A stretch of DNA of 37,914 nucleotides from Geodermatophilus chilensis (GTDB lineage Bacteria > Actinomycetota > Actinomycetes > Mycobacteriales > Geodermatophilaceae). The notes beneath the pieces are model-generated. The model had not been told where the DNA came from, ran no database searches, and saw only the letters and a list, made by a program, of their open reading frames with translations. This document shows positions 309 to 16,492 of this stretch, piece by piece. The stretch covers positions 1 to 37,914 of the forward strand of contig NZ_NVPT01000027.1 of assembly GCF_002802985.1 (NCBI RefSeq). Reading direction: 5' to 3'. A program made the translations under genes and the position numbers. The first letter of the stretch is position 1. Each line of letters opens with the position of its first letter.

Positions 309-1358
309 TCAGGACCCGGCGAAGGCCGGGACCACCTGCTCGATGAAGAGCTGGAGCGACTTCTTCTTCTCCTCGTGCGGCAGGCTGTTGTCGCACCAGA
401 AGCTGAACTCGTCCACGCCGAGCTCCTGGTAGTAGCGCAGCCGCTCGATGACCTCCTCCGGCGTCCCGATCATGGCCGTCTTGTGCAGCGACTCGGGCTC
501 GAACTCCGGGCGACCGGCGAACTTGGACTCGGGGCTGGGCTCCAGGAAGCCGTTCTCCGGCGTGGTCTTGTTGCCGAACCACGCGTCGAAGGTCCGGTAG
601 AACCGGGAGATCGCCTCGGCCGCCGGCCGCCAGCCGTCCGGGTCGTCCGGGGAGTGGACGTGGGTGTGCCGCAGGACCATGAGCCGCGGGCGGGACACCT
701 CCGGGTGGTCGGCCACGGCGGTCTCGAACTTGCGGGTCAGGTCGAGCACCTCCTCGTCGCCCTTCATGAGCGGGGTGACCATGACGTTGCACCCGGACCG
801 GACCGCGAAGTCGTGCGAGTCGGGGTCCCGCGCCGCGATCCACATCGGCGGCGTCGGCTGCTGCACGGGCTTCGGCACGCTCGTGGAGGTCGGGAACTGC
901 CAGATCTCGCCGTCGTGCGCGTAGTCGCCCTGCCACAGCTGCTGCACCGCCGGCACCAGCTCGCGCAGGTGCGCGCCGCCGCTGGTGGCGGGGATCCCAC
1001 CCGCCAGCCGGTCGAACTCGAACTGGTACGCACCGCGCGCCAGGCCGACCTCCATCCGGCCGTTGCTGATCACGTCGAGCAGCGCGCACTCGCCGGCGAC
1101 CCGGATGGGGTTCCAGAACGGGGCGATGATGGTGCCCGCGCCGAGCCGGATCCGCTCGGTGCGCGCCGCCAGGTAGGCCAGCTGCGGCATCGGGCTCGGG
1201 GAGATCGTGTACTCCATCGAGTGGTGCTCGCCGATCCACACCGTGCTGAACCCGCCGGCCTCGGCCATCAGCGTCAGCTCGGTGAGGTCCTCGAACAACT
1301 GTCGGTGACTGACCTGCTCGTCCCAGCGCTCCATGTGCACGAACAGCGAGAACTTCAC
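309..1358 (-). CDS. LLM-class flavin-dependent monooxygenase (bacterial luciferase family)
   Basis: A 349-residue TIM-barrel protein of the bacterial luciferase family (PF00296). It opens with the usual beta-1 strand MKFSLFVHME and has TVWIGEHHSMEY near residues 40-50, an RIRLGAGTIIAPFWNPIRVA stretch and the WIAARDPDSHDFAVRSGCNV region. Such enzymes use reduced FMN supplied by a separate reductase to oxygenate small organics. The start is GTG at 1358, overlapping the stop of the tautomerase gene as GTGA, with AGGAGC just upstream. It is the last gene of the minus operon that begins near 5070. The likely partner reductase is encoded at 7583-8086 in the divergent arm. I infer it is the oxygenase of a ring-opening or N-dealkylating pathway; the substrate cannot be read from sequence. 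Confidence 0.9.
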   Translation of the reverse strand: MKFSLFVHMERWDEQVSHRQLFEDLTELTLMAEAGGFSTVWIGEHHSMEYTISPSPMPQLAYLAARTERIRLGAGTIIAPFWNPIRVAGECALLDVISNGRMEVGLARGAYQFEFDRLAGGIPATSGGAHLRELVPAVQQLWQGDYAHDGEIWQFPTSTSVPKPVQQPTPPMWIAARDPDSHDFAVRSGCNVMVTPLMKGDEEVLDLTRKFETAVADHPEVSRPRLMVLRHTHVHSPDDPDGWRPAAEAISRFYRTFDAWFGNKTTPENGFLEPSPESKFAGRPEFEPESLHKTAMIGTPEEVIERLRYYQELGVDEFSFWCDNSLPHEEKKKSLQLFIEQVVPAFAGS

Positions 1359-1599: not shown

Positions 1600-3087
1600 T
1601 CAGCTCCGCATGACGAACGGGTCGGCCACCGGCTCCTGGCTGGTGTTGATCCACACGCTCTTGAGCCGGGTGTACTCGCGGATGGTCTCGGTGCCGTGCT
1701 CGACGCCCACGCCGCTGTTCTTGAAACCCTGGCGCGGCGACATCGGCGACATGGCCCGGTAGGTGTTGACCCAGACGGTGCCGGCCTCCAGCCGCGCCGC
1801 CATCCGGTGCCCGCGGGAGAGATCGGAGGTCCAGACGCCGGCGGCCAGGCCGTACTCGGTGTCGTTGGCCAGCCGCACGACCTCCTCCTCGGTCTCGAAC
1901 GGCATGATCGCCGCCACCGGCCCGAAGATCTCCTCCCGGACCACGCGCATGGAGTTGTCCACGTCGACCAGCACGGTCGGCTCGTAGAACCAGCCGCCCA
2001 GCCCGCCGTCGGTGGGCCGGCCGCCGGTGAGCACCCGGGCGCCCTCGCTGCGGCCGAGGTCGACGTAGCCGGCGACCTTGTCGCGCTGGTCGGCGAAGGC
2101 CAGCGGCCCCAGCTCCGTGGTGTCCTCGAGCGGGTCGCCGATCCGGATGCTGCGGGCCCGCTCGGTGACCCGCTCCAGCAGCTCGTCGTAGACCGACGTG
2201 TGCGCGAAGACCCGGCTGCCGGCGATGCAGGTCTGCCCCGCCGCGGCGAAGATCCCGGCCACGACGCCCATCGACGCGTTGGCGACGTTCGCGTCCTCGA
2301 AGACGATGTTGGGCGACTTCCCGCCGAGCTCGAGGGTGGAGCCGATGAACCGGGCGGCCGTGCTCGCGGCGATCCGCGCCCCGGTGCCGGTGCTGCCGGT
2401 GAAGGAGATCTTCGCCAGCTGGGGGTGGTCGACCAGCGCCTGCCCGGCCTCCGGCCCGAAACCGGTCACCACGTTCACCGCGCCGGGCGGGAAGCCCGCC
2501 TCCAGGGCCAGCTCGGCCAGCTTCAGCACGGTCGCCGAGGTGTGCTCGGACGGCTTGATCACGACCGTGTTGCCGGCGCAGAGGGCCGGGGCCAGCTTGC
2601 TGGTGGTCAGGGTGAGCGGCGAGTTCCACGGGGTGATCGCCCCGACGACGCCCAGCGGCTCGCGGGTGGTGTAGTTCAGCACCCGGCGGTCCGACGTCGG
2701 GATGACGTCGCCCTGGATCTTGTCGGCCAGACCGGCGTAGTACCAGTAGTACTCCGGCAGCGTGGTCAGCTGCCCGCGCATCTCGCGCAGCAGCTTGCCG
2801 TTGTCCTCGGTCTCCATCCGGGCCAGCTCGTCGGCGTGCTCGCCGATGAGGTCGCCGAGCCGGCGCAGCAGGTGGCCACGTCTGGTCTGGCTGAGGTCGC
2901 GCCAGCGGGGGTCCTCGAACGCCGTCCGGGCGGCCTGGACGGCGCGCCCGACGTCGGCCGCGGAGCCGCGCGCAGCGGTGTACAGCGTCGCGCCGGTCGC
3001 CGGGTTGGTGCTCTCGAAGTACTCGCCGGCGGCCGGCGCCACCCACTCACCACCGATGTGGTGCTCGTACTGCTCCAGATCAGACAT
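1600..3087 (-). CDS. NAD(P)-dependent aldehyde dehydrogenase
   Basis: A 495-residue ALDH-superfamily enzyme of normal length. Visible family features are the oxyanion Asn155 in ITPWNSP, the general base Glu253 in TLELGGKSPN and the nucleophile Cys287 in GQTCIAGSR. It oxidises an aldehyde to the acid. The ATG at 3087 lies inside the 3' end of the hydrolase gene (8-base overlap) and the stop is 2 bases before the tautomerase GTG. In trigonelline and pyridine catabolism an ALDH oxidises the ring-opened aldehyde or its lactol before the hydrolase acts (TgnC-like step). That role here is inferred from context; the sequence alone says only broad ALDH. Confidence 0.92.
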   Translation of the reverse strand: MSDLEQYEHHIGGEWVAPAAGEYFESTNPATGATLYTAARGSAADVGRAVQAARTAFEDPRWRDLSQTRRGHLLRRLGDLIGEHADELARMETEDNGKLLREMRGQLTTLPEYYWYYAGLADKIQGDVIPTSDRRVLNYTTREPLGVVGAITPWNSPLTLTTSKLAPALCAGNTVVIKPSEHTSATVLKLAELALEAGFPPGAVNVVTGFGPEAGQALVDHPQLAKISFTGSTGTGARIAASTAARFIGSTLELGGKSPNIVFEDANVANASMGVVAGIFAAAGQTCIAGSRVFAHTSVYDELLERVTERARSIRIGDPLEDTTELGPLAFADQRDKVAGYVDLGRSEGARVLTGGRPTDGGLGGWFYEPTVLVDVDNSMRVVREEIFGPVAAIMPFETEEEVVRLANDTEYGLAAGVWTSDLSRGHRMAARLEAGTVWVNTYRAMSPMSPRQGFKNSGVGVEHGTETIREYTRLKSVWINTSQEPVADPFVMRS

Positions 3088-3811
3088 GAGCCCTCTCTCC
3101 GATGAAGGTGGTCAGACAGGTGACGAGGTCGCGTGGTCGCTGGACCGGCAGCATGTGCCGGGCCCCGGGGACGACGACGGCCCGGCACCCGGGGATCGCG
3201 GCGGCCAGCCGGTGGGTCATCCCGGGGGTCGATCCGGGGTCGAGCTCACCGGTGACCGCCAGCGCGGGCACCGCGATCCGCGGCAGCTCCGGGGCGATCT
3301 CCGCGTCCGCGGTGGCGAAGACCCGGTAGCAGTTCAGGTAGGACCTGACGTCGTTGGCCAGCAGCGTGGCCTCCGTGCGGCGCACCCACTCGGGGTCGGT
3401 GTCGGTGCCGTCGTACCAGCGGTGCAACGAGGCCGCGACGCTGCCCGGGAAGTCGGCGGCGGCCGACTCCAGCCGGCCGAGGACCGCGGCCCGCTCCTCC
3501 TCGGTGCGCCGGCACACCGAGCTCACCGACGTCAGGGTCGCCACGAGGTCGGGACGGTGCCGGGCCAGGTGCTGGGCGACGAGCGCACCCAGGGAGAACC
3601 CGACGAGGTGGGAGCCGGGCGGGACGTCCCCGGCCACCCCGTCGGCCAGGTCGGCGAGCGTCACGCCGTCCGGAGCCGGTTCCCTCCGGCCGTGGCCGGG
3701 CAGGTCCAGGGCCAGGACGTCGACGTCGTCCTCGAGCAGCGCCGTGGTGGGCCCCCACATGGTGGAGTCCAGGCCCACCCCGTGCAGCAGGACCAGCGAG
3801 GGCTTCGCCAT
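3080..3811 (-). CDS. alpha/beta hydrolase
   Basis: A 243-residue alpha/beta-hydrolase-fold protein without a signal peptide. The oxyanion-hole motif is LLHGVG (residues 8-13), the nucleophile elbow GFSLG gives Ser73, and the likely acid and base are Asp191 (GELDPG) and His219 (GARHM). It looks like 3-oxoadipate enol-lactonase and related C-C or C-N hydrolases. It lies 10 bases after the preceding AA_synth gene and overlaps the ALDH start. In the Acinetobacter tgn pathway the hydrolase TgnD is, to my recollection, also an alpha/beta hydrolase that cleaves an N-formyl enamine intermediate. An equivalent role is plausible but unproven. Confidence 0.88.
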   Translation of the reverse strand: MAKPSLVLLHGVGLDSTMWGPTTALLEDDVDVLALDLPGHGRREPAPDGVTLADLADGVAGDVPPGSHLVGFSLGALVAQHLARHRPDLVATLTSVSSVCRRTEEERAAVLGRLESAAADFPGSVAASLHRWYDGTDTDPEWVRRTEATLLANDVRSYLNCYRVFATADAEIAPELPRIAVPALAVTGELDPGSTPGMTHRLAAAIPGCRAVVVPGARHMLPVQRPRDLVTCLTTFIGERAHV

Positions 3812-3821
3812 GGCCGCCGGC

Positions 3822-4373
3822 TCAGCGCTCGGTCGAGAGGGGCGCCAGCCGCTGCTGCGGCCGGCCCTGGGCGGCCGCGGCGAGGGCGATCACGATCTCG
3901 CCCGGGTGCGGCGCGTCGGCCAGGCGCACCTCGACGGTCTGGTGGTGCGACCGGATGGTCGCGTCGGTGACGTGCTTGAGCGGGATGTCGAACACCACCC
4001 CGGCCGGGCCGCGCTTCTCCACGGCGGGCAGGAGCGTGGTCGCGTTGGCCGCCTTCCGGAAGTGGTCGCCGAACTTCAGCGTGTGGATGAGGGCCGACCC
4101 GTGCTCCACCTCGCCGTCCAGGCCGACGATGGCCGCCTTGCCGTAGGCCTCGGCGGGGGCGTCGAGCGCGGCCAGCACCTGGGGCGCCAGCAGGGCACCG
4201 ACGGCGGAGGCGTGCTGCTCGATCCCGGGCTGCAGGTCCTCGACGAAGCCCTGCCCCGCCCACGGGTTCTCGATGACGGCGGCGACGACGGCGACGCGCG
4301 CGGCGGGGGTGACCTCACGGCCGCCCTCGGCGCAGACCTCCTCGACGATGGTCACGATCTTGCGCACGGTCAT
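3822..4373 (-). CDS. AA_synth (DUF1185) family protein, copy 1
   Basis: A 183-residue protein of the 'amino acid synthesis' family (PF06684), recognisable from RKIVTIVEEVCAEGG at the N-terminus, VIENPWAGQGFVEDL, GKAAIVGLDGEVEHGSALIH and the ATIRSHHQTVEVRL stretch. The family has solved structures but, to my knowledge, no established reaction. It begins 1 base after the stop of the second family member (TGACATG), so the two are cotranslated and may form a heteromer. This copy keeps the compact family length. Its position with an oxygenase and hydrolase suggests a role on the nitrogenous substrate or an intermediate. Confidence 0.85.
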   Translation of the reverse strand: MTVRKIVTIVEEVCAEGGREVTPAARVAVVAAVIENPWAGQGFVEDLQPGIEQHASAVGALLAPQVLAALDAPAEAYGKAAIVGLDGEVEHGSALIHTLKFGDHFRKAANATTLLPAVEKRGPAGVVFDIPLKHVTDATIRSHHQTVEVRLADAPHPGEIVIALAAAAQGRPQQRLAPLSTER

Positions 4374-4374
4374 G

Positions 4375-5070
4375 TCAGGAGATCTCCAGTTTCTCTGCGG
4401 TGACGACGGGGTCGGTGGCGCGGTCGCCGATGCGGGCGTGCGGGCGGGGACCGGTGGAGGCGGCGGCGATCACGACGATCTCGTCGGGCCGGGGGGCGTC
4501 GGGGACCCGGGCGGAGATCGTCTGGTAGTGGCTGCGGGTGGCGGCGTGGGTCTTGTGCCACATCGGGACGACGAGGGTCTCGCCGGCGTCGGCCCGGGTG
4601 TCGGCGAAGCAGATGATCGACTCGCCGCCCAGGAACTCCCGCATCAGGTTGCCGAAGTAGGGCGTGTGGATGAGCGCCCCCGCGTGCTCGAGCTCCCCGG
4701 CCGTCCCGACGAGGGCCGCCTTCCCGAACGCCTCGATCCGGTCGACGCCGCCGAGCGCATCGATCAGCCGGCCGGTCAGCAGCTGCGCCAGCACGGGCGC
4801 GACCACCTCGACCGCGGGCGCCAGATCGGTCGCCGGGCCCGTGCCGACCCACGGGTTGGCCAGGACGGCGGCGACCGTCGCGCGCTCGCTGGGCCGGGCG
4901 GGCGCGCTGCCGTTCTCGGCGAGGACGGTCTCGCGGTACAGCACCACCTTGCGGATGCCGACCGCCGACCGGGCTCCTCGTGCTGCCGGGGCCGGCCCCG
5001 TTCCGCTGGCGGCGTCCGGTGGCGTGCCGGTGCGTCGGACCCGGGCGGTGTCGACGGCGGTCACGGGCAC
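4375..5070 (-). CDS. AA_synth (DUF1185) family protein, copy 2
   Basis: Second PF06684 member, read here as 231 residues from GTG 5070. It repeats the landmarks of its neighbour: IRKVVLYRETVLAENG, VLANPWVGTG, GKAALVGTAGELEHAGALIH and a C-terminal AATRSHYQTISARV. It is the first gene of the minus operon. An in-frame start at 5130 would place the codon inside the inferred promoter (5108-5137), so I prefer 5070, although its ribosome site (GGCGCGGAG) is poorly spaced. The first ~45 residues are Ala/Pro/Gly-rich and absent from copy 1, so an internal start nearer residue 45 is also possible. Confidence 0.82.
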   Translation of the reverse strand: MPVTAVDTARVRRTGTPPDAASGTGPAPAARGARSAVGIRKVVLYRETVLAENGSAPARPSERATVAAVLANPWVGTGPATDLAPAVEVVAPVLAQLLTGRLIDALGGVDRIEAFGKAALVGTAGELEHAGALIHTPYFGNLMREFLGGESIICFADTRADAGETLVVPMWHKTHAATRSHYQTISARVPDAPRPDEIVVIAAASTGPRPHARIGDRATDPVVTAEKLEIS

Positions 5071-5090
5071 CTCCGCGCCCTGGAGTGAAG

Positions 5091-5142
5091 CTGTTGCATG
5101 GCACAGGACCGTACCGTTGTTGACGGCCACGCGTCAACGACG
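5091..5142 (-). promoter_or_regulatory. minus-operon promoter with inverted repeat
   Basis: On the minus strand TTGACG (5137-5132) and TACGGT (5113-5108) are separated by 18 bases, a good actinobacterial promoter match placed to start transcription about 35 bases before the GTG at 5070. The -35 sits inside an inverted repeat with 11-base arms (CGTTGTTGACG at 5115-5125, CGTCAACGACG at 5132-5142, one mismatch). Next to the expected start site lies an imperfect palindrome, TGTTGCATGGCACA (5091-5104 region), with the same central CAT as the operators at the divergent promoter. All read by eye. Confidence 0.45.
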
Positions 5143-5305
5143 GGCCGCTCCGGCGTTCCGCGATCCGCTCCGGACGCCGGGCAGCGACGGCCATCATGGC
5201 CGCGGTAACCGCTTGGCCTGCACAGATACCGCATCGCGTCGCCGCGGCGACACACCGCTCAGGGGCGTGGGCGCCACGCGGAGGTGGCGAGCCACGGCCA
5301 CCCTC

Positions 5306-5351
5306 TTGACATGCCAGTGTGTCCGACTTAACGTCCTGTGGCATACCAGTG
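5306..5351 (+). promoter_or_regulatory. BCCT-operon promoter with paired operator-like repeats
   Basis: TTGACA (5306-5311), a 17-base spacer and TAACGT (5329-5334) form a plausible promoter for the plus operon. Two similar palindromic decamers, TGACATGCCA (5307-5316) and TGGCATACCA (5339-5348), each followed by GTG, lie 32 bases apart (about three helical turns). One overlaps the -35 and the other lies just downstream of the -10, the classical arrangement for repression. The shape TGRCATRCCA fits FadR-subfamily GntR operators, and a GntR/FCD regulator is encoded in this operon at 8118-8792. Confidence 0.55.
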
Positions 5352-5390
5352 ACGGCGTCGTCCACGTCGTCCCACTCCTCGAGGAGCCTC

Positions 5391-7091
5391 ATGTCCAGTG
5401 ACCTCGGAGCGCGCGTGCCCCAGCAGCCGGTGGCCCCCGCACCGGCTCCGGATCTCGCCACGCTGCCGCCCGACGCCGTGCCCGACCCCGCGGAGGAGGG
5501 CCGACTCGGGTCGGTCTTCTGGACGTCGGTGGCCATCTCCGCGGTGTTCGTCGCCTGGGGTGTCCTCTTCACCGAGAACCTCACGACCGTCACCACGGCG
5601 TCGCTGAACTGGCTCACCGAGTCCTTCGGGTGGACCTACCTGGTCGTGACGCTGGCGATCCTGGTCTTCCTCGTGTTCCTGGCCTTCAGCCCGGCCGGTG
5701 ACATCCGGCTCGGCAGGGACACCGACCGGCCGGAGTTCTCCACGCCGACGTGGTTCGCGATGATCTGCGCCGCCGTGATGGGCATCGGCCTGGTCTCCTA
5801 CGGCGTCGCCGAGCCCATCTCGCACTTCGCGACCCCGCCGCACGGCCTCGCGGAGGCCGGTTCACCCGAGGCCGCGGTGCGGGCGCTGCAGTACGCCTAC
5901 TTCGACTGGGGCCTGCACGCCTGGGCGATCTTCGCCGTCTTCGGCCTGGCCATCGCCTACTCGACCTACCGCAAGGGCCGGCGGACGACGGTCAGCCAGC
6001 TGTTCCGCCCGCTGCTCGGGGACCGGGTCGACGGCCCGGCCGGCAAGGCGATCGACATCCTCGCGGTCTTCGCGACCCTGTTCGGCACCACGACGTCGCT
6101 GGGCCTGGGTGCGCTCCAGGTGAACAACGGTCTGGGCACGCTGTTCGGCGTCCCGGTCAACTCGGTGAGCCAGGTGCTCATCATCGCGGCCATCACCACG
6201 CTGTTCACGATGTCGGCGGTGACCGGGGTGAGCCGGGGCATCAAGTACCTCAGCCAGGGCAGCGCGGTGCTGGCCGTCCTGCTGTTCCTGTTCGTCCTGG
6301 TGGCCGGCCCGACGGTGTTCCTGTTCAACCTCTATGCCGAGTCGATCGGGCTGTGGGCCACCGACTTCTTCCGGATGAGCCTGCAGGGCACCGCGTTCGG
6401 CGACCTGCAGTGGATGCAGTGGTGGACCTACTTCATGATGGCGTGGTGGGTCTCCTGGGGGGCCTTCGTCGGGATCTTCCTGGCCCGCATCTCCCGCGGC
6501 CGCACCATCCGCGGCTTCATCACCGGCGTCCTCGTCGTCCCCAGCATCGTCTTCTTCACCTGGTTCACCGTGTTCGGCGGGTCCGCCATCCACATCGACA
6601 TGTTCCAGGGCGGCACCATCGCCGAGCAGACCGCGGCCGACATCAACAGCGCGTTCTTCGCGACGCTGGCGAACTTCCCGCTCGCCGAGGTCACCTCGGT
6701 GGTCGCGATCGTCCTGGTGATCATGTTCTTCGTCTCCGGCGCGGACGCGAACACCTACGTCCTGGGCATGCTGACGTCGAACGGCTCGTTGAACCCGCGC
6801 CGTCCGGTGCTGGTGCTGTGGGGCGTCCTCACCGGCGTCACCGCGATCGTCCTCATGCTGGCCGGGGGCCTGAGCGCCCTGCAGAACACGGTGATCGTCA
6901 CCTCCGCGCCGTTCCTGCTCATCATCGCGGGCCTGACGGTCGCCTTCTGGAAGGACCTCACCGCGGACCGGCGCGCGGCCGCCGCGGCCATGGCCACACG
7001 CCTCGCACCGGCCGGCATCCCGGCGCCGACCCAGGACGCCGGCACCACCGGCCCGGCCGTCCCGGCGCCGGCCGACCGGTCCGCGACCTGA
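5391..7091 (+). CDS. BCCT-family transporter (betaine/carnitine/choline type)
   Basis: A 566-residue membrane carrier with about twelve hydrophobic segments after a ~40-residue Pro/Ala-rich cytoplasmic N-terminus. Family landmarks are GIGLVSYGVAEPISHF near residue 131 and the Trp-rich WTYFMMAWWVSWGAFVG followed by ARISRGRTIRGF. In BetP-type carriers the Trp-rich segment forms the aromatic box for quaternary ammonium groups. The chosen ATG at 5391 has GAGGAG (5381-5386) five bases upstream; the longer frame from 5319 overlaps the promoter and is rejected. It heads the plus operon. A quaternary or zwitterionic nitrogen compound is therefore the expected substrate of the whole locus. Confidence 0.93.
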   Translation: MSSDLGARVPQQPVAPAPAPDLATLPPDAVPDPAEEGRLGSVFWTSVAISAVFVAWGVLFTENLTTVTTASLNWLTESFGWTYLVVTLAILVFLVFLAFSPAGDIRLGRDTDRPEFSTPTWFAMICAAVMGIGLVSYGVAEPISHFATPPHGLAEAGSPEAAVRALQYAYFDWGLHAWAIFAVFGLAIAYSTYRKGRRTTVSQLFRPLLGDRVDGPAGKAIDILAVFATLFGTTTSLGLGALQVNNGLGTLFGVPVNSVSQVLIIAAITTLFTMSAVTGVSRGIKYLSQGSAVLAVLLFLFVLVAGPTVFLFNLYAESIGLWATDFFRMSLQGTAFGDLQWMQWWTYFMMAWWVSWGAFVGIFLARISRGRTIRGFITGVLVVPSIVFFTWFTVFGGSAIHIDMFQGGTIAEQTAADINSAFFATLANFPLAEVTSVVAIVLVIMFFVSGADANTYVLGMLTSNGSLNPRRPVLVLWGVLTGVTAIVLMLAGGLSALQNTVIVTSAPFLLIIAGLTVAFWKDLTADRRAAAAAMATRLAPAGIPAPTQDAGTTGPAVPAPADRSAT

Positions 7092-7122: not shown

Positions 7123-7554
7123 ATGAGCGACCCCGACGCCCGCCGCGAGCTGATCACCGAGACCTGGGCCGCCGCCTGGGACCACGGCGACGTGGACGCG
7201 CTGGACACGCTGCTGAGCCCGGACTACCGCCGGCACGGCGGCCCGGGCGACGCCGGCCAGGACCTCGCCACCTTCAAGGCGTCGATCGTCACGACCCGCC
7301 AGGCGTTCCCCGACCTGGTGACCACGATCGACGAGGTCGTCGTCGAGGGCGACCGCGCCGCGGTGCGCTGGCACACCACCGGCCGGCACGACGGCTCGTT
7401 CCTCGGGGTGCCGCCCACGCACCGGCAGGTCGAGGTGGGCGGGGCGACCTTCGCCCTCTTCGAGGGCGACCGGATCGTGGAGGAGCAGGTCACCTGGGAC
7501 CCCCGCGCCCTGCTCACCGCGCTCGGCATCATCACTGTCGGGCAGGACCGATGA
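7123..7554 (+). CDS. SnoaL-like / ester cyclase family protein
   Basis: A 143-residue alpha+beta-barrel protein of the SnoaL/NTF2-like group. It starts with LITETWAAAWDHGDVDALDT and contains LLSPDYRRHGG, AFPDLVTTIDEVVVEGDRAA, VRWHTTGRHDGSFLGVPPT and FALFEGDRIVEEQVTWD. This is the pattern of SnoaL-like polyketide cyclases and small-molecule isomerases. A strong GAGGAGGA site precedes the ATG. It lies 31 bases after the transporter and 28 bases before the flavin reductase. Members may cyclise, isomerise or hydrate; the actual chemistry here is unknown. Confidence 0.85.
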   Translation: MSDPDARRELITETWAAAWDHGDVDALDTLLSPDYRRHGGPGDAGQDLATFKASIVTTRQAFPDLVTTIDEVVVEGDRAAVRWHTTGRHDGSFLGVPPTHRQVEVGGATFALFEGDRIVEEQVTWDPRALLTALGIITVGQDR

Positions 7555-7582: not shown

Positions 7583-8086
7583 GTGACCACCCCGACCAGC
7601 ACACTCGACAGCGACCTGGTCAAGCAGGTCAACCGGCGGTTCGTCACGGGGGTCACCGTGGTGACCACGATGGACGGCGACGTGCCGCGGGGGCTGGCCG
7701 TCAACGCGTTCGCCAGCGTCTCGCTGGAGCCGCCGACGGTGATGGTGTGCGTGCAGCGCACCTCCGGGACGCACGACTGCCTGTTCCGGTCGGGCCACCT
7801 CGCGGTCAACATCCTCTCCACCGAGCAGGCGGACGTGGTGACCCGCTTCGCGGGCAAGTCGCTGGACAAGTTCGCCGGGCTGGACTGGGCTCCCGGCCCC
7901 TTCGGCAGCCCGCTGCTGGCCCGCAGCAGCGCGCAGGTGGAGGTGGAGATCCGGGAGCGGCTGCAGGCCAGCACGCACACCGTGTTCATCTGCCGCGTGG
8001 TCGACGCCCGCGTCAGCGACGCCCCGCCGATGATCTACAGCGCCGGCCGGTTCTTCGACGGCGGGCAGCTGACCGAGCTGGCCTGA
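7583..8086 (+). CDS. flavin reductase (NAD(P)H:FMN) component
   Basis: A 167-residue flavin-reductase-like, FMN-binding split-barrel protein (PF01613). Diagnostic stretches are RRFVTGVTVVTTMDGDVPRG, LAVNAFASVSLEPPTVMVCV, HLAVNILSTEQADV and the C-terminal FICRVVDARVSDAPPMIYSAGRF split across the barrel. The GTG start has AGGAGG nearby. It reduces free FMN with NAD(P)H and hands it to a monooxygenase. The only luciferase-family oxygenase in the window is at 309-1358, in the divergent arm of the same locus, so the two very probably form a two-component system (TgnA/TgnB or PyrE/PyrA type). Confidence 0.9.
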   Translation: MTTPTSTLDSDLVKQVNRRFVTGVTVVTTMDGDVPRGLAVNAFASVSLEPPTVMVCVQRTSGTHDCLFRSGHLAVNILSTEQADVVTRFAGKSLDKFAGLDWAPGPFGSPLLARSSAQVEVEIRERLQASTHTVFICRVVDARVSDAPPMIYSAGRFFDGGQLTELA

Positions 8087-8117: not shown

Positions 8118-8792
8118 ATGAGTCAGGTCCTGAACGGGGCGGGGAACGGGAGCATCCAGGCCCAGGTCATCGCCGAGCTGCGCCGCCGCATCATCAGCGG
8201 GGAGCTCCAGCCCGACGTCAACCTCTCCGAGCTCGCGCTGGCGGAGGACTTCGGGGTCAGCCGCACCCCGGTGCGCGAGGCGTTCAAGCAGCTGCAGACC
8301 GAGGGGCTGGTCGAGATCCGCCCGCGGGTGGGCACCTTCGTCACCTCCCCCTCCCGCCGGGAGATCACCGAGCTGTTCGAGATGAAGGAGCTCCTCGAGG
8401 GCGCGGCCGCGCGGCTGCTGGCGCAGCGCGGCCGCGTCCCCGAGCTGGACCGGCTCGAGGAGAACCTCCGCGAGGCCGACGCCGCGGTCGAGCGGGACGA
8501 CACGACCCGCTACGCCGAACTCGTGCAGGAGTTCCACGACCTCCTCATCGTCGGCTCGGACAACCACAAGCTCGAGGCCCACTACCGGACCCTCATGAAC
8601 CAGCTCGCCTATCCGCGGCTGGTCACCACCTCGCTGAGCCAGCCCGGCCGGCCGGCCCAGTCCGACCAGGAGCACCACCGGGTGGTCGAGCTGATCGCCG
8701 CCAAGGACGGCGACAGCGCCGAGCGGGTCATGCGCGAGCACGTCCGCGCCAGCCGGCAGGCCGTGCTCGCGGGCCTGCCCCTCCCCCGCTGA
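8118..8792 (+). CDS. GntR-family regulator, FCD (FadR) subfamily
   Basis: A 224-residue regulator with an N-terminal GntR winged helix (LRRRIISGELQPDVNLSELA, LAEDFGVSRTPVREAFKQL, VEIRPRVGTFV) and a C-terminal all-helical FCD ligand domain. The FCD histidines expected to bind a metal and the effector acid are visible in EFHDLL, DQEHHRVVELI and VMREHVR. FCD regulators usually sense small carboxylates that are pathway substrates or intermediates. It is cotranscribed with the transporter and reductase. Probable targets are the paired decamers at 5307-5348. Confidence 0.92.
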   Translation: MSQVLNGAGNGSIQAQVIAELRRRIISGELQPDVNLSELALAEDFGVSRTPVREAFKQLQTEGLVEIRPRVGTFVTSPSRREITELFEMKELLEGAAARLLAQRGRVPELDRLEENLREADAAVERDDTTRYAELVQEFHDLLIVGSDNHKLEAHYRTLMNQLAYPRLVTTSLSQPGRPAQSDQEHHRVVELIAAKDGDSAERVMREHVRASRQAVLAGLPLPR

Positions 8793-8852: not shown

Positions 8853-10121
8853 ATGGACCACCCCAGCCCCACCGCACTCCGCAGGAGTGGGCGCCGTGAC
8901 CGGGCCGGCCGAGGTCGCCCGGTGACCGCCGAGGCGGAGCTGCCCGCCGTCCTGCCGCACCGGCGGTCGCACCCCCGTTGCGAGGAGACGGTCCCCGCGC
9001 CCTGGAACGCGACGGGGCGGTGGTCGCCGGCCGGCCCCGACCCGGTCGAGCGCGTCCGGGCGGCGCTGGCGGACGTCGCCGCGGGCCGGCCGGTCGTCCT
9101 GGCCGGCGACGAGGAGGGCGGCGCCCTCGTCCTCGCCGCGGAGCTGGCCACGCCAGAGGCGGTCGCGTTCGTCGTCCGGCACACCTCCGGCTTCCTCTGC
9201 GTCGCGGTGACCGGGGACGACGCCGACCGGCTGGACCTCCCGCTGCTGACCGGGCGTGCCGTGGAGCGCCCCGCCGCGGCGCAGTGCGTGGCGGTCGACG
9301 CCCGGGACGGGGTGAGCACCGGCATCTCGGCCGCGGACCGGGCGCGGACGATGCGCCTGTTGGCCGCGGCGGACACCGACGCCGAGGACCTGGTGCGGCC
9401 GGGTCACGTCGTCCCCCTGCGGGTGCGGCCGGACGGCGTGCTGGCCCACCGGGGCACGGCGGAGGCCGCGGTGGACCTCGCCGTCCTGGCCGGGCTGCGG
9501 CCGTCCGGCGCCGTGTGCGACCTCGTCAGCCCCGCCGACCCGCGGCGGATGGCCCGCGGCCCCGAGCTCGCCGCCTTCGCCCGGGAGCACGGCCTGCGGC
9601 TGGTCGCCGTCGGGGACCTCGTGGCCTACCGCACGCGGTTCGAGGCGCTCGTCGAGCGGGCTGCCGCGACCTCCCTGCCGCTGGCCGCCGGCCGCTTCAC
9701 CGCTGTGGGCTACCGCGGCCGCCTCGACGGTCGCGAGCACCTGGCACTCGTCCACGGGGAGATCGGCGACGGCGAGGACGTCCCGGTGCACGTCCACCGC
9801 GAGTGCCTGGCCGGGGACGTCCTCGGCTCGGCCCGCTGTGGGTGCGGCGGCCGCCTGCAGACCGCCCTGGCCGGGATCGCCCACGAGGGTCGCGGGGTCG
9901 TCGTCTACCTCCGGGGCGAGCCGGACGGTGCCGACCTCTCCCGCGTGCTGTTCCGCGGGGCGCACCGGGGCGACGACGCCCCGTCGTGCGCCGCCGGTCC
10001 CGGGCCGGCCGACGACGGGCTCGACGGGCAGATCCTGTGGGACCTCGGTGTCCGCAGCAGCCGGTCGCTCGGCGGCGACCTGACCGACCGGGGGCCGGCA
10101 GCCGCGTCGTCGGGCCGGTGA
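8853..10121 (+). CDS. divergent RibBA-like protein (DHBP synthase / GTP cyclohydrolase II fusion)
   Basis: A 422-residue protein with the architecture of bifunctional riboflavin enzyme RibBA. The RibB half has RPVVLAGDEEGGALVLAAEL, DGVSTGISAADRARTM, RPGHVVPLRV, a Glu in HRGTAEAAVDLA and MARGPELAAFAREHGL. The RibA half has HRECLAGDVLGSARCGCGG, with the three zinc Cys, and a shortened end with DGQILWDLGVRS. Two catalytic loops look lost. The acidic DREGEGD-type loop of RibB is replaced by DEEGGA, and the GRGIGL loop with the conserved Arg of RibA is replaced after VVVYLRGEPDG. TGGAGGAG precedes the ATG. It may be an inactive paralogue or have changed specificity. No FMN riboswitch is visible upstream. 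Confidence 0.8.
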   Translation: MDHPSPTALRRSGRRDRAGRGRPVTAEAELPAVLPHRRSHPRCEETVPAPWNATGRWSPAGPDPVERVRAALADVAAGRPVVLAGDEEGGALVLAAELATPEAVAFVVRHTSGFLCVAVTGDDADRLDLPLLTGRAVERPAAAQCVAVDARDGVSTGISAADRARTMRLLAAADTDAEDLVRPGHVVPLRVRPDGVLAHRGTAEAAVDLAVLAGLRPSGAVCDLVSPADPRRMARGPELAAFAREHGLRLVAVGDLVAYRTRFEALVERAAATSLPLAAGRFTAVGYRGRLDGREHLALVHGEIGDGEDVPVHVHRECLAGDVLGSARCGCGGRLQTALAGIAHEGRGVVVYLRGEPDGADLSRVLFRGAHRGDDAPSCAAGPGPADDGLDGQILWDLGVRSSRSLGGDLTDRGPAAASSGR

Positions 10122-10250: not shown

Positions 10251-11435
10251 ATGCTCGACACCAGCTCCTGGCGCGCCGAGGACGGGGCCGGCCTCGACGC
10301 CCTGCGCGCCCGCACCCGCGCGCTGTGCGCCGAGTTCCCCGACGCCTACTGGCGCGAGACCGACCGCGACCGCCGCTACCCGCAGGAGTTCGTCGACACC
10401 CTCACCGCGGCCGGCCTGCTCTCGGTCCTCGTCCCGGCCGAGTACGGCGGCGCGGGCCTGGGCGTGACCGAGGCCTCGGTCATCATGGAGGAGATCAACC
10501 GCTCCGGTGGCCACTCCGCCGCCTGCCACGCGCAGATGTACACGATGGGCGCCCTGCTGCGGCACGGCAGCGACGCGCTCAAGGAGGCCTACCTGCCCCT
10601 GATCGCCCAGGGCGAGCTGCGGCTGCAGGCCTTCTCGGTCACCGAGTCCGCCGCCGGCTCGGACACCACCGCCATCGCCACCACCGCCACCCGCGACGGC
10701 GAGGACTTCCTGATCACCGGGCACAAGAACTGGACCAGCCGGATCCAGGAGTCCGACCTCGCCCTCGTGCTGGCCCGCACCAGCGAGCGGGGGGCCGACA
10801 AGACGCGCGGACTGACCCTCTTCCTCGTCGACCTGCGCCGGGTGCGCGCCGAGCAGCCGGAGACCCTCGAGGTCGTGCCGGTGCGCACGATGTTCAACTA
10901 CGCGACCAACCAGGTGCACTACCGCGGCATGCGCGTGCCCGCCGACCACGTCATCGGGCAGGTGGACGCCGGCTTCCGGTACGTCATCGACGGCTGGAAC
11001 GCCGAGCGCATCCTGCTCGCCGCCGAGGCGATCGGCGACGGCTACTGGTTCGTCGACCGAGCCGTCGCCTACGCCAACGAGCGGGAGGTGTTCGGCCGCC
11101 CGATCGGCGCCAACCAGGGGGTGCAGTTCCCCCTCGCCGACGCCTACATGGAGGTGCGCGCGGCGGACCTGATGCGGTACGAGGCCGCCCGGCTGTTCGA
11201 CGCGGGCCGGCCGTGCGGGGCCGAGGCGAACATGGCCAAGCACCTGGCCTCCGAGGCGAGCTGGGCCGCGGCCAACATCGCCCTCGACACCCACGGCGGC
11301 AACGGCTTCGTCGACGAGTACGACGTCGAGCGCAAGTTCCGCGAGACCCGCATGTACCAGGTCGCCCCGGTCAACAACAACATGATCAAGGCCTTCGTCG
11401 CGACCAAGGTGCTGGGGCTGCCGCGGTCCTACTGA
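10251..11435 (+). CDS. acyl-CoA dehydrogenase family protein
   Basis: A 394-residue flavoprotein of normal family length. It contains LVPAEYGGAGLG, the substrate/FAD signature FSVTESAAGSDT, TGHKNWTSRIQESDLALVLA, the helix GWNAERILLAAEAIG and the C-terminal DTHGGNGFVDEYDVERKFRE. The position where many members carry the catalytic Glu in a YEGT motif reads YQVAP, so the Glu in NAERI, the position used by isovaleryl-type enzymes, is the better candidate base (inference). I prefer ATG 10251, preceded by GGGAGA; an ATG at 10233 would add six residues. It lies 129 bases after the RibBA-like gene, so cotranscription is uncertain. Confidence 0.9.
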   Translation: MLDTSSWRAEDGAGLDALRARTRALCAEFPDAYWRETDRDRRYPQEFVDTLTAAGLLSVLVPAEYGGAGLGVTEASVIMEEINRSGGHSAACHAQMYTMGALLRHGSDALKEAYLPLIAQGELRLQAFSVTESAAGSDTTAIATTATRDGEDFLITGHKNWTSRIQESDLALVLARTSERGADKTRGLTLFLVDLRRVRAEQPETLEVVPVRTMFNYATNQVHYRGMRVPADHVIGQVDAGFRYVIDGWNAERILLAAEAIGDGYWFVDRAVAYANEREVFGRPIGANQGVQFPLADAYMEVRAADLMRYEAARLFDAGRPCGAEANMAKHLASEASWAAANIALDTHGGNGFVDEYDVERKFRETRMYQVAPVNNNMIKAFVATKVLGLPRSY

Positions 11436-12200: not shown

Positions 12201-12776
12201 ATGACCCGATCGCGCCTGCTCCTGACCGTGCCCGCCGTCCTCGCCGTCGCCGCCTGCGGGGGTGAGTCCGCCGAGGGGACCGCCGCCCCGGCCACCGCGC
12301 CGTCGTCGTCGGCCGTGGCCGGCAGCACCCCGACCGGTGGTCCGACGGCCGGCGGCACCACGACCGGCAGCACCTCCGGCGCCGCGTCGGCCTCCCTCGA
12401 GTTCGAGGACCAGTCCGGCGTCGGGGACTCCGCGACGGTGGCCCGCGTGTCCGCTCCCGAGGCCGGCTTCGTCGTCGTCCTGCTCGAGGAGGACGACGAC
12501 CGGCCGGTGGCCGAGCGGCTCCTGGGGTCGACAGCCGTGCCGGTGGGCTCCTCGATCGACGTCGCCGTGCCGCTCGCCCCGGCCCTGACGCAGTCCACGG
12601 AGCTGGAGGCGGCCCTGTACGCCGACACCGACGGGAACGGCGCCTTCGACCCGGCCGCGGACCGGCCCGTCCCCGAGCCGGACGACGACGATGACGTGGA
12701 CGACGACGTGGACGACGACGTGGACGACGACGTGGACGACGACGTGGACGACGACGCCGAGTACCGGCTGGGCTGA
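12201..12776 (+). CDS. lipoprotein with DUF7282-like domain and Asp-rich repeat tail
   Basis: A 191-residue predicted lipoprotein. The signal peptide MTRSRLLLTVPAVLAVAAC ends in a lipobox with Cys19. A Thr/Ser/Gly/Ala-rich linker runs to about residue 65. The folded part (ASLEFEDQSGVGDSATVARV, GFVVVLLEEDDD, ELEAALYADTDGNGAFDPAA) resembles the DUF7282 family, which often ends in an EF-hand-like DxDGNGxFD loop. The tail is VDDD repeated five times and then DAEYRLG. The acidic tail could bind cations or the cell wall. No close operon partner is seen. Confidence 0.75.
   Translation: MTRSRLLLTVPAVLAVAACGGESAEGTAAPATAPSSSAVAGSTPTGGPTAGGTTTGSTSGAASASLEFEDQSGVGDSATVARVSAPEAGFVVVLLEEDDDRPVAERLLGSTAVPVGSSIDVAVPLAPALTQSTELEAALYADTDGNGAFDPAADRPVPEPDDDDDVDDDVDDDVDDDVDDDVDDDAEYRLG
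12696..12755 (+). repeat. five perfect 12-bp tandem repeats encoding VDDD
   Basis: The unit GTGGACGACGAC occurs five times without change at 12696, 12708, 12720, 12732 and 12744, preceded by GAC codons from 12681. It is in frame and gives an acidic tail, so gains or losses of units would not shift the frame. The perfect identity at DNA level suggests recent expansion or slippage. Confidence 0.95.
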
Positions 12777-12925: not shown

Positions 12926-13423
12926 GTGCCGATCGTCCCGTCGCCGGACCCGGTCGCGGTCGCCCGGCCGACCGACGGGGACGCGGCCCCCCGGCGCCCC
13001 ACGGTCGCCGACGCGATGATCAGCCGCCCGAAGGCACTGCCCGCCGACGCCTCGGTCGCCGACGTCCGGGCGGTCCTCGCCGACGACCACGTCGTCATGG
13101 CCCTGCTCACCGAGGACGGCGTCCTCCGCGGCACGCTGCTGCGCGAGGACCTGCCCGACACCGCGCCGGACGCAGCGCCGGCCCTCCCGCTGTCGCGGCT
13201 GGTCGGCCGGATCGTCGCACCGGCCGCCCCACTCGCCGACGTGCACGAGCTGCTCCTGCGCACCGGCCGGCGCCGCCTCGCGGTGGTGGACGAGGAGGGC
13301 CGGCTGCTCGGGCTGCTGTGCCTCACGCGCCGGCGCACCGGCTACTGCAGCGACGCCGGCGTGGCCGAGCGGGCCCGCTCCCGCCGGTGCGCGCCCGGCC
13401 CGGGGTCGCCGCGGTCCGCCTGA
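12926..13423 (+). CDS. CBS-domain pair protein
   Basis: A 165-residue protein starting at GTG 12926, with GGAGGA at 12913-12918; an in-frame ATG at 12791 would add a disordered Ala/Pro-rich 45 residues. The first CBS motif is TVADAMISRPKALPADASVA followed by VVMALLTEDGVLRGTLLRED. The second is RLVGRIVAPAAPLADVHELL followed by RRLAVVDEEGRLLGLLCL. It ends with RTGYCSDAGVAERAR, a tail I associate with small actinobacterial CBS proteins. CBS pairs bind adenosine ligands or serve as regulatory modules. A hairpin follows 13 bases after the stop. Confidence 0.8.
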   Translation: MPIVPSPDPVAVARPTDGDAAPRRPTVADAMISRPKALPADASVADVRAVLADDHVVMALLTEDGVLRGTLLREDLPDTAPDAAPALPLSRLVGRIVAPAAPLADVHELLLRTGRRRLAVVDEEGRLLGLLCLTRRRTGYCSDAGVAERARSRRCAPGPGSPRSA

Positions 13424-13541: not shown

Positions 13542-14567
13542 TCAGGGGACGAGGATCGCCCGGCCCCGGACGCGACCGGCCGACAGGTCGTCGATGGCGG
13601 TCTGCACGTCGTCCATCGCGTACTTCTGCGTGTGCAGGGTGACCCGCTGCGCGGCGGCGAGGGCCATCAGCTCGACCAGGTCGTTGTAGGAGCCGACCAG
13701 GTTGCCGATGATGTTCTTCTCGGTCGAGATGAGGTCGATCGTCGGCACGTTGACGTTCTCGCCGTACCCCACGACGTGGTAGTCGCCGGCCCGCCGCGTC
13801 ATCGCGAGGCCCTCCGCCGTCGTCCCGTTCTCGCCGACGAAGTCGATGACCTGCTCGGCGCCGTGGCCGCCGGTGAGCTCGAGGACCTCCGCGACGTGGG
13901 CACCGTCGGCGACGACGCCGTGGTGGGCGCCGATCTCCACCGCGAGCTTGACCGCGTCGGGGTTGCGGTCGACGACCACGATCTCGGCCGGGGACAGCGC
14001 GGCCATCACCTGGATGCCGATGTGCCCGAGCCCGCCCGCGCCGATGAGCACGGTGCGGTCGCCGGCCCGCAGCTTCCGCGCCGCCTTGGCGACGGCGTGG
14101 TAGGCGGTCAGCCCGGCGTCGGCCAGCGCGGCGACGTCGGCCGGCTCCAGCGAGTCGTCGATCCGGACCACGCTGCGCGCCGACGTCTTGAGGTACTCGG
14201 CGTAGCCGCCGTCGGTGTCGATGCCGGGGAACTGCGAGTTCTCGCAGTGCACGTCGTCACCGAACCGGCAGGCGCGGCACAGCCCGCAGGTGATCAGCGG
14301 GTGCAGGATCACCTTGTCGCCCTCGGCGACGTGGGTGACCGCGCTGCCCACGGCCGACACCCAGCCGGCGTTCTCGTGGCCGATCGTGTACGGCAGCGCG
14401 ACGCCGGACTTCTCCGCCCACTGGCCCTCGAGGATGTGGATGTCGGTCCGGCACACCCCCGCCCCGCCGACCTTGACGATGACGTCGTGCGGGCCGGTGA
14501 CCTCGGGCTGGGGGACGTCGTCGAGCTGCAGCGGCTGGTGGTATCCGACGACGCGGACGGCCTTCAT
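13542..14567 (-). CDS. zinc-dependent NAD-linked alcohol dehydrogenase
   Basis: A 341-residue medium-chain dehydrogenase. Catalytic zinc ligands are Cys39 (GVCRTD) and His64-Glu65 (TIGHE). Structural zinc ligands are Cys94, 97, 100 and 108 in TCGLCRACRFGDDVHC. The dinucleotide fold is IGAGGLGHIG and an Asp in VVVDRNPDA favours NAD over NADP. The ATG overlaps the stop of the DUF59 gene (ATGA). In propane-monooxygenase loci an alcohol dehydrogenase of this class oxidises the alcohol product; the same role is inferred here from the neighbours. Confidence 0.92.
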   Translation of the reverse strand: MKAVRVVGYHQPLQLDDVPQPEVTGPHDVIVKVGGAGVCRTDIHILEGQWAEKSGVALPYTIGHENAGWVSAVGSAVTHVAEGDKVILHPLITCGLCRACRFGDDVHCENSQFPGIDTDGGYAEYLKTSARSVVRIDDSLEPADVAALADAGLTAYHAVAKAARKLRAGDRTVLIGAGGLGHIGIQVMAALSPAEIVVVDRNPDAVKLAVEIGAHHGVVADGAHVAEVLELTGGHGAEQVIDFVGENGTTAEGLAMTRRAGDYHVVGYGENVNVPTIDLISTEKNIIGNLVGSYNDLVELMALAAAQRVTLHTQKYAMDDVQTAIDDLSAGRVRGRAILVP

Positions 14568-15349
14568 CGGGCGGTTCCCTTCGAGACGGTGAGCGGGAGC
14601 AGGGGACGGTCCTCGGGGCGGGGCGTCTGGTCGGCCTCCGACCCGGGGTAGCGGGTGGTGAGCAGACCCCGGCAGAAGTGTGCGTTGCCGTCGACGGAGA
14701 TGCGCACCGAGCGGGCCCGGCGCAGCACCATCTCCGCCTGCGCGGGGTCGGGGCGGGTGCCGTCGTCCCGCACGAGCACCGGCGCCCCGGCGTCGACGGG
14801 CAGGCCGAGGGTCGCCCGGCGGCGCAGCAGCGCGTCGGTGGTGCGCTCCCCCGCCGGCAGGTCGCCGAGGGTGAGCGCCGCGACGTCGACCGTGGGGTCG
14901 GTGCGGAGCAGCGCGGTGATCGCCCGCTCCATCGCCGCGGTGTGCGCCTTGCGCTGGAAGGTCGCCCGCAGCTCGTCGAGCGACTCCTCCGCCTCGTGCC
15001 CGAAGGTGCCCCGGTAGCCCAGCCCGGCGGCCATCCCGCGGTTGATCAGGTCGGAGTCGTGGTGGTCGTCGAGCTCGACCACCACGGACTCCACCCCGGG
15101 GACGGCGGACACCGCGTCGTGGGCGTCGGAGACCATCAGCCAGGCGAAGTTGGGCGCGCAGAACGAGGTGGGCAGGCGCAGGTGCACCTCCACCGTGGGC
15201 CGGCCGGGCAGACCATGGACGGTCACCGAGCGGACGAAACCGACGTCGGTGATCGGCTCGTCCAGCTCGGGATCGACGACGGTGCCGAGCGCGGCGCGGA
15301 CCCTGCCCTCGGAGACCTCGGCGGTGCGGTCGGTGAGCAGCGCGGTCAT
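14564..15349 (-). CDS. DUF59/MIP18-type (metal-sulfur cluster assembly-like) protein
   Basis: A 261-residue protein beginning at ATG 15349. The first ~110 residues are a DUF59 domain (PF01883): RVRAALGTVVDPELDEPITD, VGFVRSVTV, VEVHLRLPTSFCAPNFAWLM and a VVVELDDHHDSDLINRG segment. The remaining ~150 residues, with ERAITALLRTDPTV and VRISVDGNAHFCRGLLTTRY, are a lineage-specific extension. DUF59 proteins assist iron-sulfur or diiron cluster assembly. In propane and phenol-type monooxygenase operons a member of this family sits between amidohydrolase and alcohol dehydrogenase genes, and I infer a maturation role. It starts 11 bases after the amidohydrolase stop. Confidence 0.85.
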   Translation of the reverse strand: MTALLTDRTAEVSEGRVRAALGTVVDPELDEPITDVGFVRSVTVHGLPGRPTVEVHLRLPTSFCAPNFAWLMVSDAHDAVSAVPGVESVVVELDDHHDSDLINRGMAAGLGYRGTFGHEAEESLDELRATFQRKAHTAAMERAITALLRTDPTVDVAALTLGDLPAGERTTDALLRRRATLGLPVDAGAPVLVRDDGTRPDPAQAEMVLRRARSVRISVDGNAHFCRGLLTTRYPGSEADQTPRPEDRPLLPLTVSKGTAR

Positions 15350-15360
15350 CGGCGTCCGCC

Positions 15361-16404: not shown

Positions 16405-16492
16405 CTCCGGCCTCCGTCGGGTCTCTGTGGCAGCGGTCACACTCCCTGGCCGACGACGCTAGGCGGCGGCCGCCGTCCGCGGAACCGGTCGC

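Follow-up and report, generated by a model that had tools for sequence, protein, structure and literature searches.

RutA of the Rut pathway is luciferase-like, and trigonelline breakdown passes through N-methylformamidomethylene succinate, hydrolysis of which should give an enamine, 2-formylsuccinate and then succinic semialdehyde. RutA/F open uracil, RutB frees 3-aminoacrylate and RutC, a member of the Rid family, deaminates the latter (PMC8113886); TgnF of the trigonelline (tgn) pathway of Acinetobacter baylyi is a homologue of DUF1185, that is, of family PF06684 (AA_synth), and stimulates the TgnE-dependent oxidation of succinic semialdehyde, and attempts to see TgnF-like stimulation with the DUF1185 protein HcdD failed (PMC7913881). 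The name of the family, amino acid synthesis, came from gene neighbours and fold, and solved structures exist. As argued in the structure paper, a role in amino acid synthesis is suggested by ABC-transporter neighbours of SPO0826 and by branched-chain amino-acid genes linked to BB2672; both solved members (BB2672, 3byq; SPO0826, 2qtp) are one-protein hexamers in solution, arranged as a trimer of dimers, and in BB2672 helix H4 of one protomer touches, with its beginning, the segment that follows strand β7 in the other, and a cavity of about 1000 cubic angstroms at this interface includes residues of H4, the H4-β4 loop, β5 and the C-terminal region (Bakolitsa et al. 2010).

The window, that is, the whole stretch of 37,914 nucleotides analysed here (Geodermatophilus chilensis, contig NZ_NVPT01000027.1), encodes two members of this family, AAS_A and AAS_B (in the following A and B), followed downstream on the same strand by genes for an alpha/beta hydrolase, an aldehyde dehydrogenase, a tautomerase and a luciferase-type (LLM) monooxygenase (Table 1). 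The original prediction, made from the letters of the window, that two PF06684 genes, separated by a single base, head an oxygenase operon is borne out by the Pfam matches (A, 190.8 bits, E 1.8e-56; B, 200.2 bits, E 2.3e-59; curated cut-off 27 bits), for which the query for A, 4375-5067, began at a Pro codon between the candidate starts without affecting the domain, and by the TGA-C-ATG junction, at which translation of B may well be coupled to that of A. These scores, together with a genome-wide profile search in which A and B were the sole PF06684 matches at E <= 0.001 in the 5.5-Mb genome, rule out chance reading frames or one misannotated gene. Both reading frames are complete, and neither copy in the window is degraded. 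The N-terminus of A is uncertain, since GTG 5070, the coordinate given at the outset, and GTG 5064 are both possible starts, the better ribosome-binding site as judged by eye (GGAGG, 5 bases upstream) belonging to 5064. Identity between the two proteins amounts to 39% over 188 aligned positions (40% over 182 by BLAST), and both carry the landmarks described for them in the original prediction, except for TRSH-QT, which reads TRSHYQT in A but IRSHHQT in B.

Table 1. Positions of the genes discussed, in the window or in the locus named.
Feature	Position	Strand	Basis and remarks
AAS_A, first PF06684 paralogue	4375..5064 (about)	minus	Pfam, tree, residues: TgnF-like C-terminal tail, H174 and GDR (BB2672 numbering)
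AAS_B, second PF06684 paralogue	3822..4373	minus	Pfam, tree, residues: His104 (helix H4), Gln174, no GDR
A/B junction TGACATG (A stop, 1 base, B start)	4371..4377	minus	Sequence read
Alpha/beta hydrolase, PcaD-like	3080..3811	minus	31% identity to pSymA cluster hydrolase
Aldehyde dehydrogenase	1600..3087	minus	Pfam and comparison
4-Oxalocrotonate-type (4-OT) tautomerase, 80 residues	1355..1597	minus	GTG start, Pro at position 2
Luciferase-type (LLM) monooxygenase	309..1358	minus	Pfam and comparison
BCCT-family carrier, divergent	5391..7091	plus	Pfam; alternative start GTG 5319
SnoaL-like protein, divergent	7123..7554	plus	Pfam
Flavin reductase, divergent	7583..8086	plus	Pfam
GntR/FCD regulator, divergent	8118..8792	plus	Pfam
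Roseobacter PF06684 tandem pair, locus L187	8974-10145		
Roseobacter PF06684 tandem pair, locus L190	8908-10142		
Roseobacter PF06684 tandem pair, locus L191	8986-10145		

The pairing of A and B is real and conserved. PF06684 itself is patchily distributed: in overlapping sets of genomes drawn from the family, the order and the class, it was present in 6 of 112, 18 of 397 and 27 of 394, respectively. These three surveys yielded tandem pairs in 18 other genomes, the pair in G128 (locus L062) belonging to a different type; neighbourhoods were retrieved for all sites other than those of G495, G518, G659, G716, G723 and G782 (two) and the second G736 site. Together with the window, the whole-genome survey thus holds 18 A/B pairs, all of them accompanied by an alpha/beta hydrolase and a GntR regulator and 17 each by an LLM, a flavin reductase and an aldehyde dehydrogenase (the exception being locus L064), so that the pair is conserved along with the two oxygenase components. 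A separate survey of Streptomyces, which was not selected on A, found 62 matches in 33 of 295 genomes, 42 of which constitute 21 tandem pairs in 19 genomes (one pair being spaced wider). All 21 have the same order, a match of 531 bases preceding one of 519/522, and the sole unpaired 531-base match sits at a contig edge; subtype was judged here by match length only, and neighbourhoods were fetched for G450, G624 and G647 only. Among the named actinobacterial loci (L105-L184, the best 80 of 265 relatives of A), B lies directly downstream of A in 79, and the remaining one, L176, ends inside A at a contig edge. Since these loci were picked by similarity to A, they provide no measure of how frequently the family as a whole is paired. 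Their neighbours comprise an LLM (79), a flavin reductase (80), the hydrolase (79), the dehydrogenase (79) and a tautomerase (69), and the pair is evidently not a peculiarity of one strain. In one of the 79, that of Amycolatopsis orientalis (L136, 10573-12063), AAS_B is split over two reading frames, owing to either a frameshift or a sequencing error. No prior report of the A/B pair, of the second type of pair described below, or of the reading of SPO0826 given there was found in the literature searched.

The original prediction went on to suggest a heteromeric enzyme, and the comparative evidence (tree, gene overlap, residues and enrichment of differences at the cavity) favours this suggestion: A and B probably form a heteromer. 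The competing view, which we regard as unlikely yet worth keeping in mind, holds that A and B are separate homomeric enzymes that catalyse two steps, or one step on two intermediates, of the same pathway and are kept together by tandem duplication and shared regulation; the known members of PF06684 being homo-hexamers is in line with it. A script located both ends in 97 pairs, and in 85 of these the start and stop codons overlap by four bases; eight genomes enter this count twice, and it takes in L062, L064 and the three roseobacter pairs. Four-base overlaps are common for genes encoding subunits, and this argues against separate enzymes. So does the observation that, among the loci examined, an A-clade copy without B was encountered only at a contig edge. 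Evidence against the heteromer comes from the A-sister copy L078 (branch support 91/60), whose 6.2-kb contig carries no B.

A maximum-likelihood tree of 107 sequences (midpoint root; L136, L176, L083 and rows more than 86% alike left out) places A in one clade (support 98/89), which joins a group of single copies, including the TgnF-type ones, at 99/91, with B lying outside. B and one derived relative are supported at 98/88, and a lineage of single copies, L084-L086, is sister to B. Hence, the proteobacterial clusters examined possess an A-like copy without B, and both A and B are present in the actinobacterial clusters. The members of the A + TgnF group that are single copies, and equally L084-L086, occur alone, which is compatible with A and B being able to act separately. 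The six proteobacterial clusters of trigonelline type, however, show one copy alongside otherwise similar enzymes, which speaks against a second, independent enzyme and weighs against the heteromer as well.

The residues that distinguish the two paralogues can be located with the aid of BB2672, whose numbering we use, and of SPO0826; both belong to subfamilies other than A and B in the tree, but share with them the fold, the conserved ion pairs and the greater part of the histidine cluster. In AlphaFold models (mean pLDDT 85.4 for A and 88.9 for B), both proteins adopt that fold, with Z-scores against 3byq/2qtp of 22.6/21.5 for A and 22.3/21.1 for B. Glu90, Glu92, His93, His98, His144, Arg172 and Arg176 do not vary among the 90 sequences of A (one of which is cut short at the tail) or the 88 of B, counts that omit eight loci repeating a named genome, the B of L136, and L083. 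The residues of the interface ion pairs, E90-R176 and E92-R172, are consequently retained in full in A and in B each, which counts for the proposed assembly but would equally suit separate homomers. Position 104, which falls in H4 past its first turn, is Leu, Val or Ile in 90 of 90 A and His throughout B (88 of 88). At position 174, 83 of 90 A have His (five have Asn, one Phe) and 86 of 88 B have Gln (one has His), and a GDR tail is found in 89 of 90 A and 0 of 88 B. In TgnF-type copies these features come together: all eight have His174 and GDR, and six of the eight have His104 too. Since His104 occurs in 0 of 6 other single copies of the TgnF/A group, it is not a requirement in every single copy, a point against the proposed site.

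Altogether, 27 positions are fixed differently between A and B, 16 of them among the 52 cavity-segment positions and 11 among the remaining 130 (Fisher p 0.0003); for the C-terminal dimer interface the enrichment is not significant (13 of 63 vs 14 of 119, p 0.13). The interface was tested first and the cavity only afterwards, on the basis of its published description, and both tests treat related sequences as independent. Clustering in cavity segments is also what two different substrate specificities would give. For the heteromer, it would imply that a single cavity is built from helix H4 of B and the C-terminal tail of A, such that a mixed dimer rebuilds one TgnF-like site, most likely within a mixed version of the family's hexamer (trimer of dimers); the structure paper is silent on which protomer provides which cavity wall (Bakolitsa et al. 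2010).

A quite different and, in our judgement, improbable view is that A and B are not enzymes at all but helper or sensor proteins which, for example, stabilise a dehydrogenase or a reactive aldehyde. TgnF is described only as stimulating TgnE-dependent oxidation (PMC7913881), and the structure paper proposed sensing of pH or salt (Bakolitsa et al. 2010). The size of the cavity and the invariant Glu, His and Arg residues close to it speak for catalysis, however, as does the linkage of the genes to steps of defined chemistry in two separate routes of pyridine-ring breakdown.

The pathway in which the pair participates is best approached through the plasmid clusters of S. meliloti (pSymA), Leisingera, Burkholderia multivorans, Acinetobacter junii, Acidiphilium and Mesorhizobium, in each of which one PF06684 gene is accompanied by genes for a hydrolase, a flavin reductase, an LLM and an aldehyde dehydrogenase; from this gene content we infer that they are tgn genes. 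In Mesorhizobium the hydrolase and the flavin reductase are found in a single frame, and in Acidiphilium multivorum pACMV1 (L189, 11331-13830) the LLM gene is broken by an IS110 transposase gene. The clusters of S. meliloti pSymA (L101) and A. junii (L185) resemble the A/B cluster in possessing a luciferase-type oxygenase, a flavin reductase, aldehyde dehydrogenases and a hydrolase, and both also show a match to succinate-semialdehyde dehydrogenase; unlike the A/B cluster, the trigonelline-type clusters carry one PF06684 copy, which groups with A and not with B. The tgn-type set of LLM plus flavin reductase, aldehyde dehydrogenase, alpha/beta hydrolase and PF06684 protein is likewise present in the window. 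For the dehydrogenase in the role of TgnE, no succinate-semialdehyde dehydrogenase was found in the window operon (other aldehyde dehydrogenases lie at 18.2-19.8 and 32.2-33.9 kb), and tblastn gave matches in related loci, e.g., L100, L101 and L120.

Wild-type S. meliloti, but not a strain without pSymA, is reported to grow on trigonelline (PMC4207669), and this, together with the homology of TgnF, makes the proposed tie of the family to the degradation of nitrogen compounds sound, although it was in essence already published (PMC7913881). As a rule for the whole family the tie does not hold: among 22 actinobacterial sites examined that carry a single copy, an LLM neighbour was present at 4 and a flavin reductase was detected at none, and the six trigonelline-type clusters have single copies. 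Whether the ring that is opened in A/B clusters is trigonelline is independent of the subunit question, and we give somewhat less than an even chance to another pyridinium betaine, or an unmethylated pyridine, being the substrate. The growth phenotype of the pSymA-free strain, the similarity of the gene set on pSymA (oxygenase, flavin reductase, aldehyde dehydrogenase, alpha/beta hydrolase, GntR, PF06684) and the BCCT carrier, which suits a zwitterionic betaine, favour trigonelline, and TgnA/TgnB were deemed unlikely to act on its isomer homarine (PMC8269262). The window LLM, on the other hand, is just 51-53% identical to the LLMs of the pSymA, Leisingera and Burkholderia trigonelline-type clusters and 45-47% identical to another LLM group. 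The carrier likewise varies among the best 80 loci, being BCCT in 52 and NCS1 (cytosine-permease type) in 32, with both in five, in clusters that are otherwise similar. In ten A/B loci (L063, L067, L068, L070, L071, L073, L108, L145, L155 and L165), again otherwise similar, a distant luciferase-type enzyme, LLM2 (27% identity to the window LLM), lies upstream of A and replaces the usual LLM. Finally, neither a tautomerase nor a SnoaL gene was detected in any of the six proteobacterial trigonelline-type clusters, and other substrates would be in keeping with each of these features.

Taken together, A and B may be two subunits of one assembly serving an aerobic pathway for the ring opening of N-methylpyridinium or pyridine carboxylates, with trigonelline as the best guess, a reading for which we consider the chances to be about even. 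The monooxygenase and the flavin reductase would open the ring, the aldehyde dehydrogenase would oxidise the product and the alpha/beta hydrolase would cleave the resulting enamide; the A:B assembly would then accelerate formation of the semialdehyde from the (methyl)aminomethylene- or formyl-dicarboxylate set free in this step, in a role resembling that of RutC towards 3-aminoacrylate. Assigning this exact reaction, at the enamine/formyl-dicarboxylate stage after ring cleavage, is doubtful. The chemistry may be a deamination, a decarboxylation or a tautomerisation, and there is room for each in view of RidA genes beside AAS in two loci and of the tautomerase in most actinobacterial clusters. 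If the proposal is true, many ‘amino acid synthesis’ annotations would become ring-degradation genes, and the A/B pair constitutes a sharp test of PF06684 function.

The Rut operon follows a similar logic, with ring opening by an oxygenase and a flavin reductase, a hydrolase, and a small protein of similar fold for the enamine. The likeness in fold between the models of A and B and the Rid proteins is weak: outside the family, the best match for A is the Rid protein PA0814 (Z-score 7.0; 3.2 Å, 111 residues), which is level with chorismatase (6.7) and unrelated entries at about 6.3, with RidA 5hp7 (5.9) and RutC (5.5) scoring lower, and that for B is a PurM-type enzyme (7.1), with PA0814 at 5.8. 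All of these Z-scores are under 8 and may reflect a common arrangement. Pfam gave PF06684 only for A and B at E up to 0.001, with no match to the Rid/YjgF profile or to that of AroH-type chorismate mutase, for which the fold Z-scores are 4.9-5.9 only. A and B thus differ from RutC in having no Rid match in Pfam, a Z-score to Rid structures of 5.5-7.0 and a family hexamer with its own interfaces. The idea that AAS replaces RidA is weakened by two loci (L081, about 13083-13322; L082, about 10305-10616) in which a RidA gene lies between the LLM gene and a single-copy PF06684 gene, just upstream of the latter; AAS is therefore not simply a RidA substitute. A RidA query (one sequence, E <= 1e-5) matched in only five of the loci examined, including its own.

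A second kind of pair is found in Sulfitobacter mediterraneus, Sagittula stellata and S. pontiacus, where two PF06684 genes with a 4-base overlap lie downstream of the genes for 6-hydroxynicotinate reductase and a UPF0280 protein, near molybdenum-hydroxylase subunits (Table 1). The reductive route that runs through this reductase proceeds via an enamide to 2-formylglutarate (PMC9304392). In the tree, the first member of the pair groups with BB2672 and the second with SPO0826, the latter being 89% identical to the second member of S. mediterraneus over 181 positions; His174 is kept in the first member only (3 of 3). Genes for ABC transporters adjoin the 6-hydroxynicotinate reductase clusters of Sagittula and S. 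pontiacus, and no support for a role of PF06684 in amino acid synthesis was found in this analysis.

SPO0826 was crystallised alone, although its relative with 89% identity is the second member of a Sulfitobacter pair. Its crystal (2qtp) lacks density for residues 103-115, 137-145 and 172-193, and the dimer interface is unseen; the authors invoke salt and pH, and a hexamer was observed in solution (Bakolitsa et al. 2010). The A/B pair offers a simple alternative reading, namely that the partner was missing: were SPO0826 half an enzyme, the disordered interface would be explained. It is tempting to speculate, albeit with rather low confidence, that PF06684 proteins are inter-subunit enzymes for the unstable enamine/formyl-dicarboxylate stage of pyridine-ring catabolism, that they became obligate heteromers at least twice (A/B, and BB2672-like plus SPO0826-like), and that SPO0826 was crystallised as half of such an enzyme.

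Some further features of the window and of related loci deserve mention. A riboflavin-synthesis gene (DHBP synthase plus GTP cyclohydrolase II) occupies 8853-10121, directly after the GntR gene, and a riboflavin kinase gene is located near the cluster of Arthrobacter dokdonellae pDCT5 (L100); such genes possibly supply FMN for the monooxygenase. The divergent intergenic region contains, at 5339-5348, the palindrome-like TGGCATACCA, a plausible GntR site; a shared GntR operator upstream of A was discarded, the TGGCATACCA pattern being present in just 4 of 81 homologous intergenic regions, and a promoter and terminator scan of 4900-5420 returned no match. Farther away, the minus strand of 13542-16440 encodes an alcohol dehydrogenase and an amidohydrolase_2 protein, in a gene order that we take to be like that of the accessory genes of propane-type diiron monooxygenases, and the reading frame at 12201-12776 ends in a tail of repeated DDDVDDDVDDD (12691-12776).
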